From positions 62,001 through 126,000 of the forward strand of contig NZ_LGVW01000011.1 in the NCBI RefSeq assembly GCF_001263335.1: a stretch of DNA of 64,000 nucleotides, read 5' to 3'. Every line of letters starts with the position of its first letter. Position 1 is the stretch's first letter. Below are positions 22,129-33,304 of this stretch, piece by piece. The notes beneath the pieces are model-generated. The model made no database searches. It saw only the letters and a list, made by a program, of their open reading frames with translations, and was not told where the DNA came from. The position numbers and the translations under genes are program-made. Source of the DNA: Dichelobacter nodosus. Its GTDB lineage: Bacteria; Pseudomonadota; Gammaproteobacteria; Cardiobacteriales; Cardiobacteriaceae.

Positions 22129-22170
22129 ACCGGCGCCGGATTTTAAAACTGGCGCCGGTAATCATTTTTC
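22129..22170. terminator. Terminator between convergent ppsA and ung
   Basis: ACCGGCGCC (22129-22137) pairs with GGCGCCGGT (22151-22159) around a 13-nt loop. ATCATTTTTC follows on plus and TTTTATTTTT on minus, so it probably serves both strands. Confidence 0.8.
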
Positions 22171-22177
22171 TTAAATA

Positions 22178-22867
22178 TTACACTTGCCAATTAATCGGCG
22201 TCTTTCCGTGCGCGATTAAATAATCATTGGCGCGCCGAAAATGATCGCAACCGATAAATGCACCGCCAGCGAGCGGCGACGGGTGCACCGCCGTTAAAAT
22301 GCAATGTTTTTCCGCATCAATAAATTGCGCTTTCGCTTTGGCAAAATTACCCCATAACATAAAAACAATATGTTCCCGTTCATTTGATAACGCTTCAATA
22401 GCCGCGTGGGTAAATTCCTGCCAACCGATAGCGCGATGACTGCCGGCTTTTCCGGCTTCTACCGTCAGCGATGCGTTTAATAATAAAACGCCTTGTTTTG
22501 CCCACGCGCTTAAATCGCCGTGATCGGGTACCTGAAAATCCGGATAACTGCGTTTGAGTTCTTTATAAATATTGAGCAAAGAGGGCGGTGGGCGCACGCC
22601 TTTAGGCACCGAAAACGATAATCCCATCGCCTGACCGCGCCCGTGATATGGATCTTGCCCAATAATAACGGCTTTTACCGCATCAAATGGCGTTTGATCA
22701 AAAGCGTTAAAAATCAATTTATTAGGCGGATAAGTGACGATTCCTTGCGCTTTTGCCGCGAGTAACGTTTCTTTAATGCGCACAAAATAATCTTGGGAAA
22801 ATTGTTCATACAACACTTTCTTCCAACTTTCCTCGATGCGCACATTTTCCGGACAAACTTCGATCAT
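22178..22867 (-). CDS. ung: Uracil-DNA glycosylase, family 1
   Basis: 229 residues. Excises uracil from DNA at the start of base-excision repair. The water-activating loop GQDPYHGRGQAMG and the minor-groove loop VHPSPLAGGAF are intact, and the FMLWGNFAKAK block is conserved. AGGAGTAATT precedes the ATG. It starts 2 nt after the stop of the MliC-like lipoprotein and so appears to be the last gene of the long envelope operon that begins at xpaC, an unexpected partner for a repair enzyme. Confidence 0.97.
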   Translation of the reverse strand: MIEVCPENVRIEESWKKVLYEQFSQDYFVRIKETLLAAKAQGIVTYPPNKLIFNAFDQTPFDAVKAVIIGQDPYHGRGQAMGLSFSVPKGVRPPPSLLNIYKELKRSYPDFQVPDHGDLSAWAKQGVLLLNASLTVEAGKAGSHRAIGWQEFTHAAIEALSNEREHIVFMLWGNFAKAKAQFIDAEKHCILTAVHPSPLAGGAFIGCDHFRRANDYLIAHGKTPINWQV

Positions 22868-22869
22868 AA

Positions 22870-23235
22870 TTACTCCTGAAGACGGCAGCCCGTCACCAGC
22901 ACATTATCAGAATAGGGCGCGCCGATAACGGCATGACGTCCATCGCTAAAAAAAGCCAGCGTTGCATTTTGATAAATCACCGGACGCGTACTTTCTTGTT
23001 TTTGCAAATGATATTTTTTCCCTTGATAAGTGAGCGTCAGCTTTTTTTTTTGATGATCGCGCAGTTGCGTTTCAATTTTTTCACCACGATCACATTGCCA
23101 GCGATGCCGTCCTAAAGGAAGATGCACTTGCTCGGGCTCTTGTTCATCGATAATGGTTTGTTTTTTTTCTAATGAAGATTGGCAAGCGCATAAAATCACA
23201 GCCAATATCGTTAATAAACTGATTTTATTCAACAT
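22870..23235 (-). CDS. mliC: MliC-like C-type lysozyme inhibitor lipoprotein
   Basis: 121 residues from the ATG at 23235, giving a clean lipoprotein signal MLNKISLLTILAVILCAC with the acylated Cys at residue 18. The mature part fits the MliC/PliC family: WQCDRGEKIETQL, a basic beta-rich core (KKLTLTYQGKKYHLQKQEST), YQNATLAFFSDGRHAVIG in place of the usual Y-x-FWSKG-E block, and the C-terminal VLVTGCRLQE, which resembles the end of E. coli MliC. The two cysteines match the conserved disulfide. Likely role: outer-membrane protection from host lysozyme. It sits 2 nt after a Slt transglycosylase gene. Family assignment is from motifs only. Confidence 0.7.
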   Translation of the reverse strand: MLNKISLLTILAVILCACQSSLEKKQTIIDEQEPEQVHLPLGRHRWQCDRGEKIETQLRDHQKKKLTLTYQGKKYHLQKQESTRPVIYQNATLAFFSDGRHAVIGAPYSDNVLVTGCRLQE

Positions 23236-23237
23236 AA

Positions 23238-25103
23238 TTACCACATTCGTATGTTTTTCTGTTGCCACGGCTGCACCGGCAAACCCAAACGGTACTCATA
23301 GACTTTTTCATATTCCAAAACTTGCTTAACGTAATCGCGGGTTTCATAAAAAGGAATTTGAGCAATCCATTCATCGAGCGGCAAATTGGGGCGTTCCTGC
23401 AACCATTTATTAACGCGCGCCGGCCCCGCATTATAAGCCGCGGCGGCATAAGCTAAATGCCCAAATTGGTTTAAACAATCGTACAAATACCAACTTCCCA
23501 AACGAATATTAACGGCAGGATCAATTAAACTGGCGCTGCCGCTATAAGGAATATTATGTTTTTTTGCCGTGTGATGAGCGGTTGCCGGCATGATTTGCAT
23601 TAAACCGACAGCACCCGCCGCGGATTTGATTTCCGGTTGAAAAATACTTTCTTTGCGCATAATGGCAAAAATTTTTGCCGGCGAAATTGCCAATTGCTTT
23701 GCCATCTGCCGCACCAAATCCTGATGATGCAAAGCAAAACGCTGCTGCAAATAATCCCATTTTTTAGTTTTCGCCAACGTGCTCACGGCTTGCACCGACC
23801 AACCTAATTCATCAGCAAAAAGCGCCAATTGTTCGAGTTGTTCGGGCGTTAACTGCTTTTGCAAACTGTAAAATTCTTGCAACGCGCGCCGTTTTTCGCC
23901 TAATTGCCAAAACGTTTTTAAACGATAAGTTTCGGGGCGCCGCATAATTCTATGATAATCGATTGTTTTTACTAATGATTTATTATTAAAACGATAAGAT
24001 TGCTTCATTTTTTCGGCAGCAAGAAAACCAAAAAAATCACGTTCCAACGCCGCGCGCCGATAATAATTATCAGCTTTTTCTTGATGTCCAGAACGTTCAA
24101 AACTTTTGGCAATCCAATACAAAATTTCCGGTTTTTTCAAAGTTTCCGCGTCCAAAGTATCGAGCAATAACGGCGCCAAACTCGATAATTTATGTGTGCG
24201 CAAATGATGCGCAATCACATCAAAAACGGTATTCATTTGTTGCCGATCGCGCGGAATAGCGTGATAAATAAACAATAATTCCGGTGCATCTTGTTGCGCG
24301 AGTTTTGCCGCTAAACGATTAAAACTCTCGGCTAACGCTTCATCTTCTTCCAGCGAAACATTTTGCCGCAGCGCTTCCAAAGCTAATTGCGTGGCGGCTG
24401 TTAAATCTTTTGACGCCAAACGCGTGATGCCGTCGGCTAAAATCGCGCTTTTCCACGTTTGCGGTAATAAAAATGCTTTTTCTATCGGCTCATTGCGGCG
24501 CCGAATAGACAACCATAATTGCGCGGCTTGTTGATCGCTGCCCGTCATCAAACGCGTTAAATATTGTGCCAGCGCAAGATTATTGGCGCGCAAAGTGCGT
24601 TTAAAGCGTTCTGCAATCAGTGCCGGCGGAATTTTGATGTTGGGGTGCGCAAAAACGGGATCGCAGGCGCTGTCGATATTGCCATCTTTTAACCATAATT
24701 CTTCAATATGTTTTTGTGCGGCGGCGGTTTTTCCCGTTGCCAGCAGCGCTTGTCGCCAAATGCATTCGCAGCGTTCGCTGGCAAAATGCGGGGAATATGC
24801 TGCCAAAATCGCGTCCGTTTGATTGTTTTTTAACCAAATCGGAAAAATTTTAACGGCTAATTGTGCGGCAAATGGGCTGCGGGCGTGTTGTTGCAAAAAA
24901 GTGACGATTTCCGCGCTGGCGGTGGTTTCGCCGTGTTGCACGTAAGCTTCATATTGCAAATAGGGATATAAAGGGTGCCCAAAAAATTGTTGGTAATCGC
25001 TCAACGGCGCGCCGGCACGCAACGCTGCCTCCGCTTCCAATAAACGATTGGCACGCGCGCTGGTGATGATAAGAAAAAAAGCCAATAAAATATTTTTAAA
25101 CAT
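23238..25103 (-). CDS. slt: Soluble lytic murein transglycosylase, Slt70 type
   Basis: 621 residues, size of Slt70. Cleaves glycan strands of peptidoglycan with formation of 1,6-anhydroMurNAc, in the periplasm. A signal peptide (MFKNILLAFFLIITSARA) is followed by a long helical superhelix domain (about 20-450) and the catalytic SLT domain. The catalytic glutamate is Glu485 in MRKESIF, with AAGAVGLMQIMPATA and AYNAGPARVNKWL downstream. GAGAAG precedes the ATG. Third transglycosylase in a row in this operon and the only one with the Slt superhelix. Confidence 0.95.
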   Translation of the reverse strand: MFKNILLAFFLIITSARANRLLEAEAALRAGAPLSDYQQFFGHPLYPYLQYEAYVQHGETTASAEIVTFLQQHARSPFAAQLAVKIFPIWLKNNQTDAILAAYSPHFASERCECIWRQALLATGKTAAAQKHIEELWLKDGNIDSACDPVFAHPNIKIPPALIAERFKRTLRANNLALAQYLTRLMTGSDQQAAQLWLSIRRRNEPIEKAFLLPQTWKSAILADGITRLASKDLTAATQLALEALRQNVSLEEDEALAESFNRLAAKLAQQDAPELLFIYHAIPRDRQQMNTVFDVIAHHLRTHKLSSLAPLLLDTLDAETLKKPEILYWIAKSFERSGHQEKADNYYRRAALERDFFGFLAAEKMKQSYRFNNKSLVKTIDYHRIMRRPETYRLKTFWQLGEKRRALQEFYSLQKQLTPEQLEQLALFADELGWSVQAVSTLAKTKKWDYLQQRFALHHQDLVRQMAKQLAISPAKIFAIMRKESIFQPEIKSAAGAVGLMQIMPATAHHTAKKHNIPYSGSASLIDPAVNIRLGSWYLYDCLNQFGHLAYAAAAYNAGPARVNKWLQERPNLPLDEWIAQIPFYETRDYVKQVLEYEKVYEYRLGLPVQPWQQKNIRMW

Positions 25104-25118
25104 GAACTTCTCGGCTGA

Positions 25119-25817
25119 TTATTGAATATGCATTTTCCACTCGTTTTGATAATGCCCGCGATACGCTAACACGCGGTTAACGTAATTTTGCGTTTCAGGG
25201 TAGGGCGGAATCGTGTAATGATATTTTTTCACGGCTTCGGGGCCAGCATTGTATGCGGCGAGCGCTAACGCTTCATTACCATTAAAATAAGTCAGCATTT
25301 GCCGCAAATAACGAACGCCACCATCAATATTTAAAGCAGGATCAAATGGATCGTTAACGTTTAACGCACTGGCAGTTGTCGGCATTAATTGCATCAAACC
25401 AATAGCGCCTTTATTAGAAACCACTTCAGAACGATAAGCCGATTCCACCGTAATCACCGCGTGAACCAAACTGGCATCAACTTGATGTTTTTTGGCTAAT
25501 TCATTGATTAAATTCTTCATTTCATTTTGACGTTTTTCAAATTCGCCGCTGGGTTTGCTCACCGTTTGCGCGCCGGTTTTGCCGCTGGGTTTTACGATAC
25601 ATTGATGACGAATGCGAATTAACACGCCGTTAATCTTTAATTCTGCTTTGCAGGCGGAAGAAACCGAAGTTTTCGTGGTCAACGGTCTGCCCAAACTGCA
25701 GGGAATATAATGCGTTTTACCATTTTTAACGTAACTGCCGCAGGAACGCGCGGCAAAACAATGAGTAGCAAACGCGTTTAACAGTAAAAAAATGATAAAT
25801 TTTTTCAGCACAATCAC
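25119..25817 (-). CDS. Lytic transglycosylase, short, with N-terminal cysteine modules
   Basis: 232 residues. A signal peptide (about 1-22) is followed by two cysteine-bracketed segments (SCGSYVKNGKTHYIPCSLG and CKAELKINGVLIRIRHQC) and an SLT catalytic domain. The catalytic glutamate is Glu125 in TVESAY; GAIGLMQLMPTTA and ALAAYNAGPEAV follow. The C-terminus PPYPETQNYVNRVLAYRGHY is closely similar to that of the gene upstream, so the two are tandem paralogs. It starts with GTG at 25817 overlapping the upstream stop (GTGA). Periplasmic peptidoglycan cleavage is expected; the N-terminal modules are not recognised. Confidence 0.9.
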   Translation of the reverse strand: MIVLKKFIIFLLLNAFATHCFAARSCGSYVKNGKTHYIPCSLGRPLTTKTSVSSACKAELKINGVLIRIRHQCIVKPSGKTGAQTVSKPSGEFEKRQNEMKNLINELAKKHQVDASLVHAVITVESAYRSEVVSNKGAIGLMQLMPTTASALNVNDPFDPALNIDGGVRYLRQMLTYFNGNEALALAAYNAGPEAVKKYHYTIPPYPETQNYVNRVLAYRGHYQNEWKMHIQ

Positions 25818-27367
25818 AAACCTATCAAAGACGGATTACTTTTATAACGGCGGTAATATTGCATAACTTTTGGCACATAAGCGCGAGTTTCAATAAACGG
25901 CGGAATTTTATAACCATATTTGCGCACATTGCCTTCCCCCGCGTTATAACCGGCAACTGCGAGCTCTAAATTGCCATTAAATTCGTTGAGCAACCATTTC
26001 AAATACGTTGTTCCTCCGCGGACGTTTTCGCCAGTATGAAAAGCATCGGTTACACCAAAACGCCGCGCCGTCGCCGGCATCAATTGCATCAAACCTTGCG
26101 CGCCCGCGCGTGAAACAGCTTTGGGTTTATAAGCCGATTCAGCAGAAATCACCGCATGCACCAAAAAGGGATCGACGCCAATCGTGCGCGCGATGCGGTT
26201 AATTTCGGCAGATAATCCGCGTTGACGTTCCAAAAATTGTCCACTGACGGGAATGTCTAACGTTTTAATATAGGCGGCTTTAATTTTGCGCGCTTCAACA
26301 ATCAAAGCGGCAGGGCAATCTTTTGTGGGCTCGAGGTGAAAAATTTTGCCATCAGCGCTGGTTACCGTTCCGCCGCAAGAACCTTCAACGTTTAAATAAT
26401 TTTGATACGGCGCAACCGTTGCCTGCTGCTCGCCATAAACAACCACGCCGCCGCTGCTGCCGAGCGTAAAATCATAAGAACGCGTGGCGCATCCATATTC
26501 ACGTTTTACGCCATTAAAATGCACTTTTCCCGCGCCGGTGCAACGAATAGCAGCGGTTGCCGTTGGTTCTGGTTCATTAAGATTTTGCACGCCTTGAACC
26601 GCTAAATCGCCTAAAGAACGCGGCTGTGTAGATTGTTGTTTAAAACGCGCTTTGGCGCTGGCAAACGAACGAGAAAAAAAACTGCAACGTCTAAACTTAG
26701 TTTGTTGATTTTCCGCAACATAACTGGCGCGCCCATCTTGATCAAAACATTTATAAATATCCATCGGCGGTGAATCCGTAACGGCAATTTCGCCTTTTCC
26801 TGATGATTTTTCGGTGGTGGGTTTGGACGTCGTTTTTTTCGGTTTGGGTTGCCACGCATCGGCTTTTTTAGCAAAAAAACGGCATTGTTCGTGAGGCGGC
26901 TCCGTGGCTTCTAAAATTTCATCGCCATTAGCATGAATACAAATATAAAGATTAACGGGTTTGGGTTGATTTTTTTCTTCTTTTTCAACGGTTTTCGTTT
27001 CTGGAATTTGATTTTTATTGAGCGCGGCAGGTTTTTCTGATTGCCCCGCTTGAACCTTGGGTTGCTCGATAAAACGAAATAACTGCGATGCCGGAATGCC
27101 TTGTTCGGGAACGTTTTTTTCAGGAAGCGCGATCTTTGTTGCCGTCGGTGGCACGGGAGATACCGCTTTCGGTGGCGCGGAAGTTGTTTTTTGTGGCGCA
27201 AACATTCCTTTTGTATAAGGCACGCAATTTGCGGATTTTTTTTCAGCAGGAACAATCGTTTGCATACCGTCCGGCGCAGTGCAAACAAACAGCGCATTTT
27301 GCGCAAAAGCGCTGCCTACAAAAATAAACGTCGCGCCCACAAAAAAACGGTAAAAAACGTTCATCAT
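25814..27367 (-). CDS. Lytic transglycosylase with repeated DUF4124-like cysteine modules
   Basis: 517 residues. A signal peptide (about 1-22) leads into three similar segments, each a Cys in F/Y-x-C-x-x-x-x-G followed about 20 residues later by a second Cys: C29/C48, C143/C162 and C207/C228. The third, IYKCFDQDGRASYVAE, looks like a DUF4124 domain. A fourth, less similar pair is C276/C293. Low-complexity linkers rich in Pro, Lys and Thr separate them. The C-terminal SLT domain has catalytic Glu410 in SAESAY, then GAQGLMQLMPATA and VAGYNAGEGNVRKYG. Start and stop overlap neighbours by 4 nt. The modules may bind the wall or partners; that is inference. Confidence 0.9.
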   Translation of the reverse strand: MMNVFYRFFVGATFIFVGSAFAQNALFVCTAPDGMQTIVPAEKKSANCVPYTKGMFAPQKTTSAPPKAVSPVPPTATKIALPEKNVPEQGIPASQLFRFIEQPKVQAGQSEKPAALNKNQIPETKTVEKEEKNQPKPVNLYICIHANGDEILEATEPPHEQCRFFAKKADAWQPKPKKTTSKPTTEKSSGKGEIAVTDSPPMDIYKCFDQDGRASYVAENQQTKFRRCSFFSRSFASAKARFKQQSTQPRSLGDLAVQGVQNLNEPEPTATAAIRCTGAGKVHFNGVKREYGCATRSYDFTLGSSGGVVVYGEQQATVAPYQNYLNVEGSCGGTVTSADGKIFHLEPTKDCPAALIVEARKIKAAYIKTLDIPVSGQFLERQRGLSAEINRIARTIGVDPFLVHAVISAESAYKPKAVSRAGAQGLMQLMPATARRFGVTDAFHTGENVRGGTTYLKWLLNEFNGNLELAVAGYNAGEGNVRKYGYKIPPFIETRAYVPKVMQYYRRYKSNPSLIGL

Positions 27368-28254
27368 GATTTTCTTCTTTTCATCACGTCAATACAGACT
27401 TTTACCGGCAACCATTGCCGCATTCCTTTTTTCCAAATTAAATCGCGCTCGTCGATGCTGCCGTTATTCAAACCTGCTTCCAATTCCGCCATGCTAAACG
27501 GTCCAATTTGTTCCCCATTTTGCACGCGGAAAAATTCGCGCCGTGTGGGAAGCGTTGAGTTTGACGCATGATGAACAGGCGCCGGTTCATTTTTTTTCAC
27601 CGCGTTTTTTTCGGGAGAGTGTGCAGACGGTTCCGCTGATAACGGCAACGGCGCGGTTTCTTCAGCGGCAATCGTCAGCGCATTGATTTGAATGCCTTGC
27701 GCGTTGAGCGTTCTCATTAAAGATTCGGTGAGAAATTGCCCTAAACCAACGGCATGCTTTTTAATATCTTCCGCGGGCACTTTTTGTGCGCGCAAAATAT
27801 CAACCACGGCACGCGCAATAAAATCATTAATCGCGTCCATACCGGATAAATAAGATAAATCACGGAAAAATTCGCAAAACGCCGCCGGCGCGGTAATCGT
27901 GAATTCATAATTTCCTTCAAGCGCCAAAGTCAACGCGGCTTCGGGCAAGGTATAACGCGGATAATGCCAAACGTTGCGCGATGGCGTGTGGCAACGAAAA
28001 TTAATCAAATAAAGCGGCTGTTGATGATGAAAAAGCTGCAAATCCGTTTTATGAATCACATGTTCACCGCCGATAAATAAATGGCTGGATTGTTTTTTTT
28101 GCAATAAAAAAGCCATTTGATCTTTGGGCACAAGCAAACGATCGCCTGCCGCGATTTTATGAAGTTCCGTCACCGTTAAACATTGTTGCTCGGGCAATTG
28201 CGGCGCCGCAATTTGGTTTGACGAATGAGCAAAAAATTTATTTAAAAAAGACAT
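27364..28254 (-). CDS. SPFH/YdjI-like protein with C-terminal GYF_2 domain
   Basis: 296 residues. Residues about 20-205 fit the SPFH-type domain of B. subtilis YdjI and 'virion core protein' homologs: GDRLLVPKDQMAFLLQKKQ, a NFRCHTPSRNVWHYPR strand region, LTLALEGNYEFTITAPAAF, and a helical ILRAQKVPAEDIKKHAVGL followed by NAQGIQINALTI. A Pro/Ala-rich linker leads to a GYF_2 domain at about 240-290 (FFRVQNGEQIGPFSMAELEA, then IWKKGMRQWLPV). No transmembrane helix. Relatives pair with PspA-like or TelA proteins in membrane-stress clusters. It lies 11 nt after telA and overlaps the next gene by 4 nt. Confidence 0.75.
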   Translation of the reverse strand: MSFLNKFFAHSSNQIAAPQLPEQQCLTVTELHKIAAGDRLLVPKDQMAFLLQKKQSSHLFIGGEHVIHKTDLQLFHHQQPLYLINFRCHTPSRNVWHYPRYTLPEAALTLALEGNYEFTITAPAAFCEFFRDLSYLSGMDAINDFIARAVVDILRAQKVPAEDIKKHAVGLGQFLTESLMRTLNAQGIQINALTIAAEETAPLPLSAEPSAHSPEKNAVKKNEPAPVHHASNSTLPTRREFFRVQNGEQIGPFSMAELEAGLNNGSIDERDLIWKKGMRQWLPVKVCIDVMKRRKS

Positions 28255-28265
28255 CTTATTGATTT

Positions 28266-29363
28266 TTATGAAGCAGTACTAATGGTGGATTTTAATGCGT
28301 TTTTAAGCTCTTGCTCGGCAGCGATTAAACGATCCTCGGTTTGTTTGCGTTGAATACGGGCTTGTTCATGAATTTGAATGCCTTCTTCAATGGTTGCAAT
28401 TAACAGCCGATTGGCTTGCTCGACGGCTTCAATATCAAAAATACCGCGTTCAATTTGTTGCCGACTTTCACGATTGGATACTTGCAAAGTTTCGGCGTTT
28501 TTCATCAATAATTCGTTCGTCAGATCGCTACTTTCTTTCAGCGATTGCGCCGCTTGATGAGAGCGATAAATCGTAATCGTTTGCGCGAGTTGCTGACGCC
28601 ATAAAGGAATCGTATTCAATAAAGTGCTGTTGATTTTATTAATCATGCCTTTATCGTTTTCTTGCACTAAGCGAATGCTGGGCAAGGCTTGCATGGAGAC
28701 TTGTTGCGTTAACCGCAAATCCGCCAAACGGCGCTCGATTTCATCGCGCATTGCTTGAAAATCGCGCAAACGTTGGGCGCTTTCCATGGTTTGACTTTCT
28801 TCGGTGCGCGCTTTTAAAGCGGGCAAAGAATGTTGATCGGCGTGTTCAATGACTTGTTCGGCAGCGGCAACGTAATGACGCAAATCGCGGTAATAACCCA
28901 GCGTTGCTTCATAAAGTCGATCTAATGAAGTGATATCCAGCAATAATTGTTGTTTGTGCTGCTCTAATTCATTAGCGATGCCGTCGATTTGATCGTTGAC
29001 GGATTCAAATTGTTGAATAAACGATTGCACGCCGCTGGCTTTGCCCAATAATTTATTCCAAAACCGCGGTTTTTCGTACAATTGTTTTTCTTTTCCTTGA
29101 AAACCACGCAACGCGCTGACCATATTATTCAATAAAGCGCCGGCGCCGCCGAGATCTTTATTGCGCACATCTTTCAGCATATTATTGGCAACGCTATTGA
29201 TTTGCCGCTGTGCATCTGATCCAAAACTCAATATTGATTGACTGCTTTTAATATCAAGCTGCGCCACCAATTGCCGCACGCGCTGCGGATCTAATTGATC
29301 GGAATCCTCTTGTTCGGTTATCGTCAAAGCATTTTGCTGCTCAATTTGGATATCATTTGTCAT
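28266..29363 (-). CDS. telA: TelA/KlaA-family protein (toxic anion resistance family)
   Basis: 365 residues, helical throughout with strong coiled-coil character, no signal peptide. Matches TelA/YaaN: LDPQRVRQLVAQLDIKSSQS, an early GAGALLNNMVSALRGF block, PRFWNKLLGK, LDRLYEATLGYYRDL, and the C-terminal EEGIQIHEQARIQRKQTEDR. Plasmid homologs are linked to tellurite resistance; chromosomal ones are thought to act with XpaC in membrane-associated stress responses. I chose the ATG at 29363 behind AGGAAAAAAG, overlapping xpaC by 11 nt; a longer frame from 29429 would run deep into xpaC. The next gene is the SPFH/GYF protein. Confidence 0.92.
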   Translation of the reverse strand: MTNDIQIEQQNALTITEQEDSDQLDPQRVRQLVAQLDIKSSQSILSFGSDAQRQINSVANNMLKDVRNKDLGGAGALLNNMVSALRGFQGKEKQLYEKPRFWNKLLGKASGVQSFIQQFESVNDQIDGIANELEQHKQQLLLDITSLDRLYEATLGYYRDLRHYVAAAEQVIEHADQHSLPALKARTEESQTMESAQRLRDFQAMRDEIERRLADLRLTQQVSMQALPSIRLVQENDKGMINKINSTLLNTIPLWRQQLAQTITIYRSHQAAQSLKESSDLTNELLMKNAETLQVSNRESRQQIERGIFDIEAVEQANRLLIATIEEGIQIHEQARIQRKQTEDRLIAAEQELKNALKSTISTAS

Positions 29364-30222
29364 CTTTTTTCCTATGATTGCTATGCAATTGTTGGTGTAA
29401 AACGTCCATGCGAACATCAAGTTGCTCATTTTTTTGTTGTATTAATTGCATACTTTGTTCTTTAAAACTGTGCTCTAATTGCTCCAAAACCATCATAAAT
29501 TTTTTCCGCTGTAACCCGCGTTGATCCACGGATAAATTAAGATAATCCTCGCTAATTTTAACTAATTCTGGCAATTGCACCACAAAAAACGTCCGCGAAC
29601 GGCGCACGTGATCCGCGCTGGCGCTTGATAATTGCGCGATTTGTCTGGCATCGCTACTGACGGCATTCATTTTCCAACCCAATAAAAAATCATCGGGGTA
29701 TTGTTTGAGTTGTTGCGCGCGCTGCGTCAAAAAAACCAAATGTTTATCCGTTTCTTGCAACATTTTGCGCAAAGTTGGCGTTAACGCGTCGGGAGAAATA
29801 TCGGTTTCTGGTTCGAGCGCGGTTATTTTTTCGTCGTCAAAATAACTAAAACGGTAACCATAACCGCTTAATGCGGTAAGAAAAGTCATGCCGATAATGC
29901 CCAAAGAACGCAGAGAAAAGGTAATAATCAACACGCCCAAACACAATAAAAATAACGCAATATAACGTTTATCATCAATAAGTTGCGCCTGATTATTGAG
30001 CAAATTACGGCGTTTTTGTAAAAAATAATGCCGCGTAAAACGGGCGCTGGTTAAAAAACACGCAAGAGCAAGGATTGCCGCGGTCATTTTCCGCCAATCG
30101 TTTTGCATGATGCCGGCAAAAAATGCAAGCCACAAAGGAAATTGCAAAATATATAAAGCCGCGCCGCGAATGGCTAATAATTTTAAGCGCAGAACGTGTT
30201 GAATATGAGCGAAATCGATCAT
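29353..30222 (-). CDS. xpaC: XpaC-like membrane protein (TelA partner)
   Basis: 289 residues. Four hydrophobic segments in the N-terminal half (about 20-37, 43-60 and a pair near 86-124) are followed by a cytoplasmic helical region ending in a coiled coil (MVLEQLEHSFKEQSMQLIQQ). Family features include a linker with LEPETDISPDALTPTLRKML. XpaC homologs were named for 5-bromo-4-chloroindolyl phosphate hydrolysis in Bacillus, but no enzyme site is evident; pairing with telA is the conserved trait. ATG 30222 has only TGAG upstream; a TTG at 30234 is less likely. A putative 24-residue gene ends 16 nt before it. Confidence 0.75.
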   Translation of the reverse strand: MIDFAHIQHVLRLKLLAIRGAALYILQFPLWLAFFAGIMQNDWRKMTAAILALACFLTSARFTRHYFLQKRRNLLNNQAQLIDDKRYIALFLLCLGVLIITFSLRSLGIIGMTFLTALSGYGYRFSYFDDEKITALEPETDISPDALTPTLRKMLQETDKHLVFLTQRAQQLKQYPDDFLLGWKMNAVSSDARQIAQLSSASADHVRRSRTFFVVQLPELVKISEDYLNLSVDQRGLQRKKFMMVLEQLEHSFKEQSMQLIQQKNEQLDVRMDVLHQQLHSNHRKKDDK

Positions 30223-30238
30223 TATTGAACTCAAAAAA

Positions 30239-30313
30239 TTACTGCATCAACAGCATAAAAGAAGTGATTCCCATAGAAATAAACAAAAAAACAAATCCTA
30301 AAAATTGCCGCAC
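30239..30313 (-). CDS. Putative 24-residue membrane peptide upstream of xpaC
   Basis: A GTG at 30311-30313 has GAGGAG as ribosome-binding site 7 nt upstream. It opens a 24-residue frame ending in TAA at 30239. The product (MRQFLGFVFLFISMGITSF plus MLLMQ) is one continuous hydrophobic helix with a positive N-terminus, as expected of a single-span small membrane protein. It lies 16 nt before xpaC in the same orientation and would be the first gene of the operon. The call rests on the ribosome-binding site, hydrophobicity and position; no homolog is known to me. Confidence 0.5.
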   Translation of the reverse strand: MRQFLGFVFLFISMGITSFMLLMQ

Positions 30314-30824: not shown

Positions 30825-31665
30825 GTCTCAATCATTGCCGACTGCCGGTTGTTTATTTATCGTTGCTACGCCCATTGGCAATTTAAAAGATATATCAACG
30901 CGCGCCCTCGAAACGCTGCAACACTGTAGCGCCATTGCCTGCGAAGACACGCGCGTCAGTCAACATTTGTTAACCGCATTCGGCATTCAAAAACCGTTGA
31001 TTGCGTTGCATCAACACAATGAATATCGCGCCGCAGACAGCATTTTAGCGCGACTGCACGCCGGCGAAGATATTGCCGTGATTTCTGACGCGGGAACGCC
31101 GCTGATTTCCGACCCCGGCGCCATCATTACTGCGCTCGCCCATCAAAATCAAATCCGCGTTATTCCCGTTCCCGGCGCAAACGCCGTGATTACCGCGTTA
31201 TCTGCCAGCGGTTTGCCGGCGGATCGTTTTGTTTTTTCGGGATTTATTCCTGCAAAAGCCGGCGAACGCGATCGTTTTTTAACGCAACACGGACATTATC
31301 CGCTGACCACCGTTTTTTATGAAACACCGCACCGCATTAAAGCCACGCTTGATGCCTGTCAACAACAATTTTCTGCCGAGCGCAAATTAGTAATCGCGCG
31401 TGAATTAACAAAAACCTTTGAACAAATCGTTTCAACAACTGTCGCTGATGCGCCTTCATGGTTAAACGCTGATAAACAACACGAAAAAGGGGAATTTGTT
31501 TTATTGCTCGCCGGCGATACCGAACAAAAAACCGCGGAGCATTGGCAAACATTAGCCGATGATTTAGCAGAAGCGGGATTGAGTAGTAAAACGATTGCCG
31601 CGTTGCTGGCTAAACATTGCGCCGCTCATAAAAAAACCGTTTATAACTATCTCATCGCGCGATAA
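30823..31665 (+). CDS. rsmI: 16S rRNA 2'-O-ribose C1402 methyltransferase
   Basis: 280 residues. Methylates the ribose of C1402 in the ribosomal decoding centre with S-adenosylmethionine. The tetrapyrrole-methylase fold is clear: LFIVATPIGNLKDISTRALE near residue 12, ACEDTRVSQHLL, VISDAGTPLISDPG, VIPVPGANAVITALSASGLP and FYETPHRI. ATG 30823 has AGGAA upstream; an earlier frame start at 30790 lacks one. The 3' end overlaps the sitD stop region by 19 nt on the opposite strand. Confidence 0.96.
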   Translation: MSQSLPTAGCLFIVATPIGNLKDISTRALETLQHCSAIACEDTRVSQHLLTAFGIQKPLIALHQHNEYRAADSILARLHAGEDIAVISDAGTPLISDPGAIITALAHQNQIRVIPVPGANAVITALSASGLPADRFVFSGFIPAKAGERDRFLTQHGHYPLTTVFYETPHRIKATLDACQQQFSAERKLVIARELTKTFEQIVSTTVADAPSWLNADKQHEKGEFVLLLAGDTEQKTAEHWQTLADDLAEAGLSSKTIAALLAKHCAAHKKTVYNYLIAR

Positions 31666-32462
31666 ATGCACGCACTCATGAAAATGATGCCTTGGCTTAA
31701 AACAATGCAGGCTGCCGGCGAAGCGTTCCAATAAAAACTGGCTAATAATCCGCTGAAACTCGCTAAAATTGCCGAAAAAACAGCAACTATCAACATCATT
31801 GAAAACCGGCGGCAACACATTTGCCCCGTTATCCCCGGCGCAACCAGCATCGCAACGATTAAAATAACGCCAACCGCTTGCATTGCCGCCACAGCAGTTA
31901 ATGCCACTAAAACTAATAAGGTATAACGCAAATGCTGCCGCGATAACCCACTGATATGGGCATGATTTTCATCAAAAACATATAATAAAAAATCTTTCCA
32001 TTTCAATAAAATAACGATGATGACGGCAATGCTTATCAGCAGCGTTTGCCAAAAATCTATCGCTTGAATGCCTAAAATATTGCCAAATAATATTTTGCTT
32101 AACGGTTCGGCAGGTTGAAAAATACTGTAAAGCAGCATGCCCAATGCCATCATGCCGGAAAAAACTATGCCGAGCAGACTGTCCGCGGGTAAATGCGTTT
32201 GTTGATCCAACGCATCTGTTGAAACAACGCATAATAACGCCGCTCCTAAAGCACCAATACTGATAGGAATGCCAATTAATATTGCAATAACAACGCCTAA
32301 AGTCATGGCATGCGCCATCGCATCGCCTAACATCGACCAACCACGTAATACCAAATAACACGAAAGGAGCGCGCAACTACTACTGATAAACAAAGCAATC
32401 AATAAAGCCTGTTGCATAAAAGGGTAGGTCAGCGGTAGAAAAAAAGCATTATCAAACATCAT
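31647..32462 (-). CDS. sitD: Metal ABC transporter permease, SitD-like
   Basis: 271 residues, about eight to nine hydrophobic segments. It is of the ABC-3 permease family used for Mn, Fe and Zn import. The cytoplasmic coupling region YLVLRGWSMLGDAMAHAMTLGVV and the block ILLKWKDFLLYVFDENHAHISGL are conserved. AGGAAAAG precedes two adjacent ATGs. It ends the sitABCD-type operon, 11 nt after sitC, and converges on rsmI with a 19-nt overlap. Its two-permease arrangement favours Mn/Fe (Sit/Yfe) over zinc (Znu) import. Confidence 0.85.
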   Translation of the reverse strand: MMFDNAFFLPLTYPFMQQALLIALFISSSCALLSCYLVLRGWSMLGDAMAHAMTLGVVIAILIGIPISIGALGAALLCVVSTDALDQQTHLPADSLLGIVFSGMMALGMLLYSIFQPAEPLSKILFGNILGIQAIDFWQTLLISIAVIIVILLKWKDFLLYVFDENHAHISGLSRQHLRYTLLVLVALTAVAAMQAVGVILIVAMLVAPGITGQMCCRRFSMMLIVAVFSAILASFSGLLASFYWNASPAACIVLSQGIIFMSACIYRAMR

Positions 32463-32473
32463 CTTTTCCTGAT

Positions 32474-33304
32474 TTATTGCGTCCGGCGCACAACAAAATC
32501 ACGTTGAGCTGTAAATAAAAAAATCAAAACAAAAAATAGAGTTTGAATGACGACGATTAAAGGCGCAGTGGCGCTGTGCAAAAAGTAACTTAAATAACTG
32601 CCTAAAAAACCGCTCAAACCGCCAATAATCGCTGAAAATATCAATACAATTCCAAAACGACGACTACACAAATATGCTGTTGCTGCCGGCGTAATCATCA
32701 GCGCGGTTACTAAAAGTGCACCAACTGCCTGAAGAGAAATAACAACTGATATTGTCAGCAATATAAAAAAGAGTAAGCGCAGCAAACGGCAATTTAAACC
32801 ACAAATAAACGCTTGAGTTTCATCAAAGAAAATCAGCATAAAATCTTGCCATTTCAAAGCAATAACACACAAACTAACGCTGGAAATGCACAATAATTGC
32901 CATAAATCTTCCGAAGAAATCGTTAAAATCTGCCCGTAAATGATCGCGTCTAAACTAATGGCTGTAGGATTAATGGAAATAATCAATAAACCAAGTGCGA
33001 AAAATAGCGATAAAACAAAAGCGATAATGGCATCGCTATAAACGTGGCTGCGCGTTTTAAGTAACAACATTGTTAAAGCGGCGCACACCGCCGCAATCAA
33101 CGCACTTAATAAATACGGTAATTGAAAACAATAAGCGGTGGCGACGCCCGGCACTACAGCGTGCGACAAAGCATCGCCTATCAATGACCAGCCTTTTAAA
33201 ATTAAATAAACCGATAAAACCGCACACAAAATGCCCACAATGGTTGCGGCAATCATCGCCGTATTCATATAAGAAAACTGAAATGGTTCAAGCAGATTGA
33301 TCAT
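32474..33304 (-). CDS. sitC: Metal ABC transporter permease, SitC-like
   Basis: 276 residues, multi-spanning ABC-3 permease and paralog of the next gene; compare VYLILKGWSLIGDALSHAVV and ALKWQDFMLIFFDETQAFICG with sitD. In known Sit/Yfe systems the two permeases form a heterodimeric channel. The ATG overlaps the sitB stop by 4 nt (ATGA). The base composition of this operon looks more AT-rich, with fewer CGCG words, than its neighbours. Confidence 0.87.
   Translation of the reverse strand: MINLLEPFQFSYMNTAMIAATIVGILCAVLSVYLILKGWSLIGDALSHAVVPGVATAYCFQLPYLLSALIAAVCAALTMLLLKTRSHVYSDAIIAFVLSLFFALGLLIISINPTAISLDAIIYGQILTISSEDLWQLLCISSVSLCVIALKWQDFMLIFFDETQAFICGLNCRLLRLLFFILLTISVVISLQAVGALLVTALMITPAATAYLCSRRFGIVLIFSAIIGGLSGFLGSYLSYFLHSATAPLIVVIQTLFFVLIFLFTAQRDFVVRRTQ

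Follow-up and report, generated by a model that had tools for sequence, protein, structure and literature searches.

Dichelobacter nodosus is the bacterium of sheep footrot. In a 64,000-nucleotide stretch of its genome (contig NZ_LGVW01000011.1, positions 62,001 to 126,000; hereafter the window), an initial annotation made from the letters alone described a minus-strand block in which xpaC, telA and a gene for an SPFH protein (spfh) precede three lytic transglycosylase genes (slt1, slt2 and slt), a gene for an MliC-like lipoprotein (mliC) and ung. We confirm that this gene order is real, and find that the part running from xpaC to mliC is a conserved unit in the family Cardiobacteriaceae. Below, xpaC, telA and spfh are referred to as module A, and the transglycosylase genes with mliC as module B or the wall cassette.

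Organization of the block

The block is flanked by yraN and a terminator-like hairpin (Table 1). Its two gene sets had been called fused, which is the wrong term because the genes are merely adjacent. Overlaps join xpaC to telA (11 nucleotides, nt), spfh to slt1 (4 nt) and slt1 to slt2 (4 nt), and short gaps separate telA from spfh (11 nt), slt2 from slt (15 nt), slt from mliC (2 nt) and mliC from ung (2 nt); from xpaC to ung, every gap is thus 2-15 nt and every overlap 4-11 nt. A strong promoter or terminator inside the block would, according to the initial annotation, split it into unrelated units. Neither kind of site is in excess: promoter-like sites number 16, where shuffled sequence gives 16.3, and terminator-like sites number 14, where it gives 17.8, in a scan that admits loops of 3-8 nt only (the hairpin after ung has one of 13). 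The hairpin region after ung folds at -23.7 kcal/mol over a 69-nt stretch.

The tiny membrane gene that had been placed upstream of xpaC found no corroboration. When the 300 nt upstream of xpaC were screened, short open reading frames (ORFs) ending at most 16 nt from xpaC were present in three of eight genomes (the window, G005 and G009); only the window and G005 copies look membrane-like by eye, and the sequences show no mutual resemblance.

Table 1. Genes and other features of the block, listed from high to low position in the window (aa, amino acids)
Feature	Position	Strand	Length	Evidence and remarks
Putative hydrophobic ORF, GTG start	30239..30313	minus	24 aa	Read in sequence, uncorroborated
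xpaC (Halogen_Hydrol/XpaC family; hydrophobic N-terminal half)	29353..30222	minus	289 aa	Pfam PF10112 34.0 bits (cut-off 29.8), scanned with a 12-nt upstream extension of the frame
telA	28266..29363	minus	365 aa	Pfam PF05816 335.5 bits, over cut-off; start picked from sequence
spfh (divergent SPFH/Band-7 with C-terminal GYF_2)	27364..28254	minus	296 aa	GYF_2 46.3 bits
slt1 (lytic transglycosylase, N-terminal Cys-containing repeats)	25814..27367	minus	517 aa	Pfam SLT 94.7 bits
slt2 (paralogous lytic transglycosylase)	25119..25817	minus	232 aa	Pfam SLT 97.5 bits
slt (Slt70-type soluble lytic transglycosylase)	23238..25103	minus	621 aa	Pfam SLT and SLT_L
mliC (MliC-fold lipoprotein gene)	22870..23235	minus	121 aa	Pfam MliC PF09864 47.4 bits, scanned with an upstream extension of the frame; lipobox LCAC read in sequence
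ung (uracil-DNA glycosylase)	22178..22867	minus		NCBIfam equivalog; outside the conserved unit
Terminator-like hairpin 3' of ung	22129..22159	minus		9-bp G+C-rich stem, 13-nt loop, then T-rich tail

Conservation within Cardiobacteriaceae

Twelve Cardiobacteriaceae genomes, the window's included, were searched with TelA. The protein was found in eight, and in none of G001, G002, G007 and G010, which are 86%, 93%, 72% and 78% complete, respectively. All eight TelA-bearing genomes, from five genera, carry the order xpaC-telA-spfh-slt1-(slt2)-slt-(mliC) on one strand, each with an xpaC orthologue and with the SLT genes directly after spfh. The objection foreseen in the initial annotation, that SLT genes might never lie near xpaC-telA in relatives, fails because the linkage is kept in every TelA-bearing family member. 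The gene slt2 is present in nine of the ten genomes that bear the wall cassette, and is missing in G009.

Across the TelA-bearing genomes, the genes from xpaC to spfh overlap or stand at most 61 nt apart, and the spacing from spfh to slt1 is -4 to 27 nt in the window, G006, G011, G008, G003 and G009. The frames of xpaC, telA and spfh are open in seven of the eight; G005 has two open frames in place of one for both spfh and slt1 (L029 8080-10485), and slt1 is divided in the same way in G004 (L031 4439-6135). The slt1 splits, which occur in two genera, may be sequencing error, decay or a true split. Mean pairwise identity is 63% for TelA, 54% for SLT1, 49% for Slt, 47% for SLT2, 36% for XpaC, 31% for MliC and 27% for SPFH, in a comparison where two of the SPFH frames were over-extended or truncated. 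TelA of the window, taken one residue longer at its start than in Table 1, is 54-57% identical to those of the seven other family members, with many invariant residues.

The surroundings of the block were compared by blastp at 1e-8 between flanking frames of at least 100 aa across the ten cassette-bearing genomes, of which G011 was unusable owing to a contig end beside the block. In the other nine the flanks reach 7-19 kb upstream and 1-27 kb downstream (G005 with 1 kb downstream only). Shared flanking genes amount to 23 blastp pairs; seven of these exceed 50% identity and the other 16 lie at 24-40%. The seven comprise one gene common to the window and G001; Ung, whose G002 copy stands about 12 kb away from the block, on the opposite side relative to the window; a gene found immediately after the block in G001 and some 2 kb past its end in G009; a 104-aa partial match between G003 and G008, the sole match between these two genomes of the genus Cardiobacterium; and three pairs formed by adjacent genes upstream of the block in G006 and G009, 2 kb or more away from it. 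The family genomes thus differ in most of the genes that surround the block. In the flanks of the nine genomes, no immediate neighbour of the block is common to the whole family, and because of this we take the conserved unit to run from xpaC to mliC. The initial annotation had counted ung as a member; it adjoins the block in the window only, and none of the eight relatives with readable flanks has it there, G002 being the one in whose flanks Ung occurs at all.

The wall cassette without xpaC-telA

TelA and XpaC were not found in G002, which retains spfh-slt1-slt2-slt-mliC with all frames open. G001 retains slt1-slt2-slt-mliC only, and no xpaC, telA or linked spfh was found in it. In a tree built from slt, slt1 and slt2, both genomes fall inside the TelA-bearing set, and a single TelA-bearing clade is rejected (p-AU 0.013). 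There is accordingly moderate evidence that xpaC-telA was lost twice, in G001 and in G002, as opposed to never having been present; it is no more than moderate because this tree has a very long outgroup branch and just one starred branch.

Elsewhere in the genomes of G001 and G007, a canonical SPFH gene stands beside a zinc-ribbon membrane gene (L199 8409-11606; L200), and the third gene at these loci resembles the YdjH/TPM type by eye. PspA (PF04012) was not found in either of these two genomes.

TelA loci outside the family

Across a sample of 370 genomes from the class, TelA exceeded the cut-off in 39, three of which (G000, G004 and G009) belong to the family. The stretches around all over-cut-off TelA places except G343 were examined, together with additional stretches from the best 80 of 372 named relatives. 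Three of these best 80 are Cardiobacteriaceae (the same as G011, G008 and G006), and all three have the SLT cassette. After removal of three duplicates and of 11 stretches lacking a TelA hit below E 1e-30, the 115 outside-family stretches gave 101 loci; SLT was present in none of the 11 dropped stretches. Of the 101 loci, 96 have xpaC, 67 have spfh, 48 have a gene for a zinc-ribbon (ZnR) membrane protein and two have SLT, all counts being lower bounds because many loci lie at contig ends. In a loose check, the local SLT profile recovered three of four known SLT places (L042, L055 and L117) and missed a contig-end copy in L118.

In G250, from another gammaproteobacterial family, a gene for a Sel1-repeat SLT protein lies just upstream of xpaC-telA on the same strand (L055 5850-9085). 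This may be an independent pairing or may be due to chance; in G329, the second genome of that genus, the contig is cut off just upstream of xpaC. In L134, an SLT gene lies about 6 kb from the TelA locus on the other strand.

A general TelA-SLT linkage outside the family was rejected, with an adjacent SLT gene in one of 101 loci. In G013, from a sister family of the same order, xpaC-telA-spfh-ZnR and slt1-slt are found on two separate contigs. The simplest history is that two separate modules were joined in the ancestor of the Cardiobacteriaceae.

Proteins of the two modules

By sequence profile, the SPFH protein of the window scores 21.0 bits against Band_7_1, below the Pfam cut-off of 24; of three divergent relatives, two pass (31.7 and 25.1 bits) and the third is below. 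An AlphaFold model from 15 aligned sequences (pLDDT 84.6, pTM 0.61) matches solved SPFH proteins (Foldseek against PDB, best E 9.1e-7). The TM-score to isolated stomatin SPFH domains is about 0.67 by target length and 0.3-0.4 by whole model length, the latter being low because the alignment covers the SPFH part only. A weaker match is to a GYF domain (E 0.011). The window protein is thus predicted to have an SPFH fold, and is highly divergent. TelA gave no match to solved structures up to E 0.1. Neither the zinc-ribbon membrane protein nor PspA was found in any of the eight TelA-bearing family genomes; of the 13 genomes searched for PF04012, two (G010 and G013) were positive. A phage link and a defence link were both rejected: the SPFH protein had no tblastn match in phage records, and PADLOC gave no match except one weak TelA hit of 11.6 bits.

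All three SLT proteins match PF01464, and the Glu of the E-S motif, which we take to be the catalytic residue of the SLT family, can be read in each sequence; in SLT1 this is E410, invariant in an alignment of 10. Slt matches Slt and Slt70 PDB structures over almost its whole length (best E 3.8e-67). The SLT1 model is poor (pLDDT 55), with the Cys-containing N-terminal repeats modelled as beta-hairpins. The N-terminal half of this protein includes Cys-containing modules whose length varies among relatives. Five SLT-domain places exist in the D. nodosus genome, three of them within this block. By eye, the N-termini of SLT1, SLT2 and Slt are signal-like, and those of the SPFH/GYF_2 protein and TelA are not.

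The MliC-like lipoprotein

The MliC/PliC motifs are described as SxSGAxY and YxxxTKG; S89 and K103 of Pseudomonas aeruginosa MliC contact lysozyme, and the equivalents S83 and K103 of SliC are needed for lysozyme inhibition (all from passages of PMC6033465). We compared the operon copies with 37 other MliC proteins, 36 from the class sample and one a D. nodosus paralogue, in an alignment that also contained the segments of 2f09 and 3f6z given in print. In the comparison set the Ser is kept in 31 of 37, the Lys in 23 and both in 21. Among the operon copies, none of nine keeps the equivalent of Ser89 or Lys103, in a short motif alignment where S89 was located by its distance from the Lys in the published segment. 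In eight of the nine, the Gly of SGAxY is replaced by Pro, and in eight the Lys of TKG by Asp or Asn. Against the two structures the profile match is weak, at E 0.026 and 0.47, but Tyr/Phe and spacing agree.

The paralogue, a second MliC-like lipoprotein of D. nodosus (G000:C28:281197-281406, L116), keeps both blocking residues, and no SLT gene was found near it in its stretch. Moreover, D. nodosus has a lysozyme inhibitor of demonstrated activity, Dn-ACP (PMC6624275); the 26-base primer printed there for the dn-acp gene matches the genome once and exactly, in a frame with two ACP-like halves by eye. The initial annotation had proposed that MliC guards against host lysozyme. Because the blocking residues are lost in all nine operon copies and a lysozyme inhibitor, Dn-ACP, is encoded elsewhere, such a role by the known mechanism would be unlikely for the operon lipoprotein, as far as its residues indicate.

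Discussion

The locus combines known families in a new way. Module A, the XpaC-TelA-SPFH/GYF_2 set, is widespread in Gammaproteobacteria and is found here without the zinc-ribbon gene and with a diverged SPFH protein; module B is a wall cassette of SLT1, SLT2, a Slt70-type enzyme and an MliC-fold lipoprotein. The xpaC-telA-spfh/GYF_2-ZnR operons of Competibacteraceae, Granulosicoccaceae, Methylomonas and others have the identical first three genes in identical order, but differ in their canonical SPFH protein (Band_7_1 338 bits in one example), in often having the zinc-ribbon fourth gene, and in having no SLT cassette. The zinc-ribbon membrane protein of the TelA loci outside the family resembles YdjG of Bacillus subtilis. 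The B. subtilis operon ydjFGHI, encoding PspA, YdjG, YdjH and the SPFH protein YdjI, is alike in pairing an SPFH protein that carries a C-terminal adaptor domain with membrane partners (as far as described in part of PMC11237479), and loss of YdjG or YdjH is reported to disturb wall synthesis under stress (in an extract of PMC8581546). In contrast to YdjI, the D. nodosus SPFH protein has GYF_2 and not a zinc ribbon; XpaC-TelA are present, no PspA was found in the genome, no YdjG-like gene was found, and three transglycosylases are in the operon.

Listeria lmo1966-lmo1967 is likewise an XpaC-TelA gene pair. Both genes are among those responding to bacteriocin (table values 0.61 and 0.63), and an lmo1967 mutant has higher sensitivity to nisin and tellurite; this system differs in being Gram-positive, and SPFH or SLT genes are unnamed in the passages of that report considered (PMC12791056, citing Collins 2010). 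With the MliC/PliC inhibitors the operon lipoprotein shares the MliC domain (PF09864) and its lipoprotein nature, but not the blocking Ser and Lys. With Slt70-type enzymes Slt is alike over almost its whole length, but its operon also encodes two smaller SLT enzymes and an MliC-like lipoprotein. Within the terms used, and judged by title and start of abstract, we found no report evidently on the joint locus in the open-licence literature. A phage-shock survey treats band-7 neighbours, and a word search of it gave no occurrence of TelA, toxic anion, SPFH, YdjI or transglycosylase (PMC11237479).

Our tentative reading, to which we give somewhat less than an even chance, is that the block is a Cardiobacteriaceae-specific, PspA-free envelope-maintenance operon made of two joined modules, with a lipoprotein that may keep transglycosylases of the cell itself in check. 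One transcript would yield stabilizers at the cytoplasmic face of the membrane together with periplasmic wall-turnover enzymes. In the boldest step, the MliC-like lipoprotein would restrain or position the co-produced transglycosylases, and not act on host lysozyme. Partial inhibition of MltA/B in vitro is described for both MliC and Ivy of E. coli in an excerpt of PMC10139938. The modules are more likely to be linked by shared expression under envelope stress than by direct contact between XpaC/TelA/SPFH and the enzymes. A stronger version, in which the operon serves PspA-free trans-envelope repair, a diverged XpaC-TelA-SPFH membrane scaffold is made together with the three lytic transglycosylases, and a repurposed MliC-fold lipoprotein, no longer lysozyme-blocking, is a dedicated governor of the transglycosylases, appears unlikely to us.

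Several observations weigh against a functional union of this kind. Regarding the lipoprotein, 16 of the 37 comparison MliC proteins also lack one or both blocking residues, and loss of these residues does not show the gain of another target. The operon copy is missing in G003, and a general MliC-SLT linkage was rejected, as SLT was present in none of the 36 stretches (5-12 kb) around outside-family MliC places over the cut-off. E. coli MliC is described as a weak transglycosylase inhibitor, and its loss or overproduction left the outcome of MltA overproduction unchanged (both in the same excerpt of PMC10139938). Regarding the linkage, some flanking genes are common to genome pairs, and the wall cassette persists without xpaC-telA in two of ten cassette-bearing genomes (G001 and G002), from which module A is dispensable for it. 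Finally, the association does not extend beyond one family and may have arisen just once, and conservation could therefore reflect descent and convenience.

The main rival explanation is an ordinary operon merger: two housekeeping units would have been joined once in the family ancestor under a common promoter, with no interplay between them. Only one family shows the joint locus, module B occurs without xpaC-telA in G001 and G002, and the whole block may just have been passed on as a unit. Against this, the block has held together in five genera amid mostly differing surroundings, and in G002, without telA and xpaC, an open spfh frame yet stays with the SLT genes. We regard a plain merger as a real possibility, although one well short of even.

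Quite improbable, in our judgment, is that the operon chiefly serves peptidoglycan turnover and recycling and that XpaC-TelA-SPFH persists in it as a degenerating relic. Of all proteins of the block, SPFH is conserved least (27% mean pairwise identity against 63% for TelA), xpaC-telA were not found in two cassette-bearing genomes, one of which also lacks a linked spfh, and G005 has spfh as well as slt1 in two open frames. However, the conservation of TelA, with its many invariant residues, and the open xpaC, telA and spfh frames in seven of eight genomes argue for selection on module A.

The model of the initial annotation, in which inner-membrane XpaC/TelA/SPFH directly controls or positions the wall-cutting enzymes while MliC protects from host lysozyme, draws on the conserved adjacency and on the MliC family being known as lysozyme inhibitors (PMC2267010, in part), but is highly improbable given that the enzymes have signal-like N-termini where SPFH/GYF_2 and TelA have none, that the blocking residues are lost in the operon and kept in the paralogue, and that two relatives retain the enzymes without xpaC-telA, one also without linked spfh.

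Under the reading of an envelope-maintenance operon, Cardiobacteriaceae would provide a family in which peptidoglycan cutting goes together with the XpaC-TelA-SPFH module, without PspA. Whether MliC-type inhibitors control a cell's own lytic transglycosylases is treated as an open question in print (in parts of PMC10139938, PMC10746161 and PMC2267010), and an MliC-fold protein without lysozyme-contact residues, in an operon with three transglycosylases, offers a natural test case.

Elsewhere in the window, at 31647-33304 on the minus strand, two tandem paralogous membrane proteins have, by eye, the look of metal ABC-transporter permeases.

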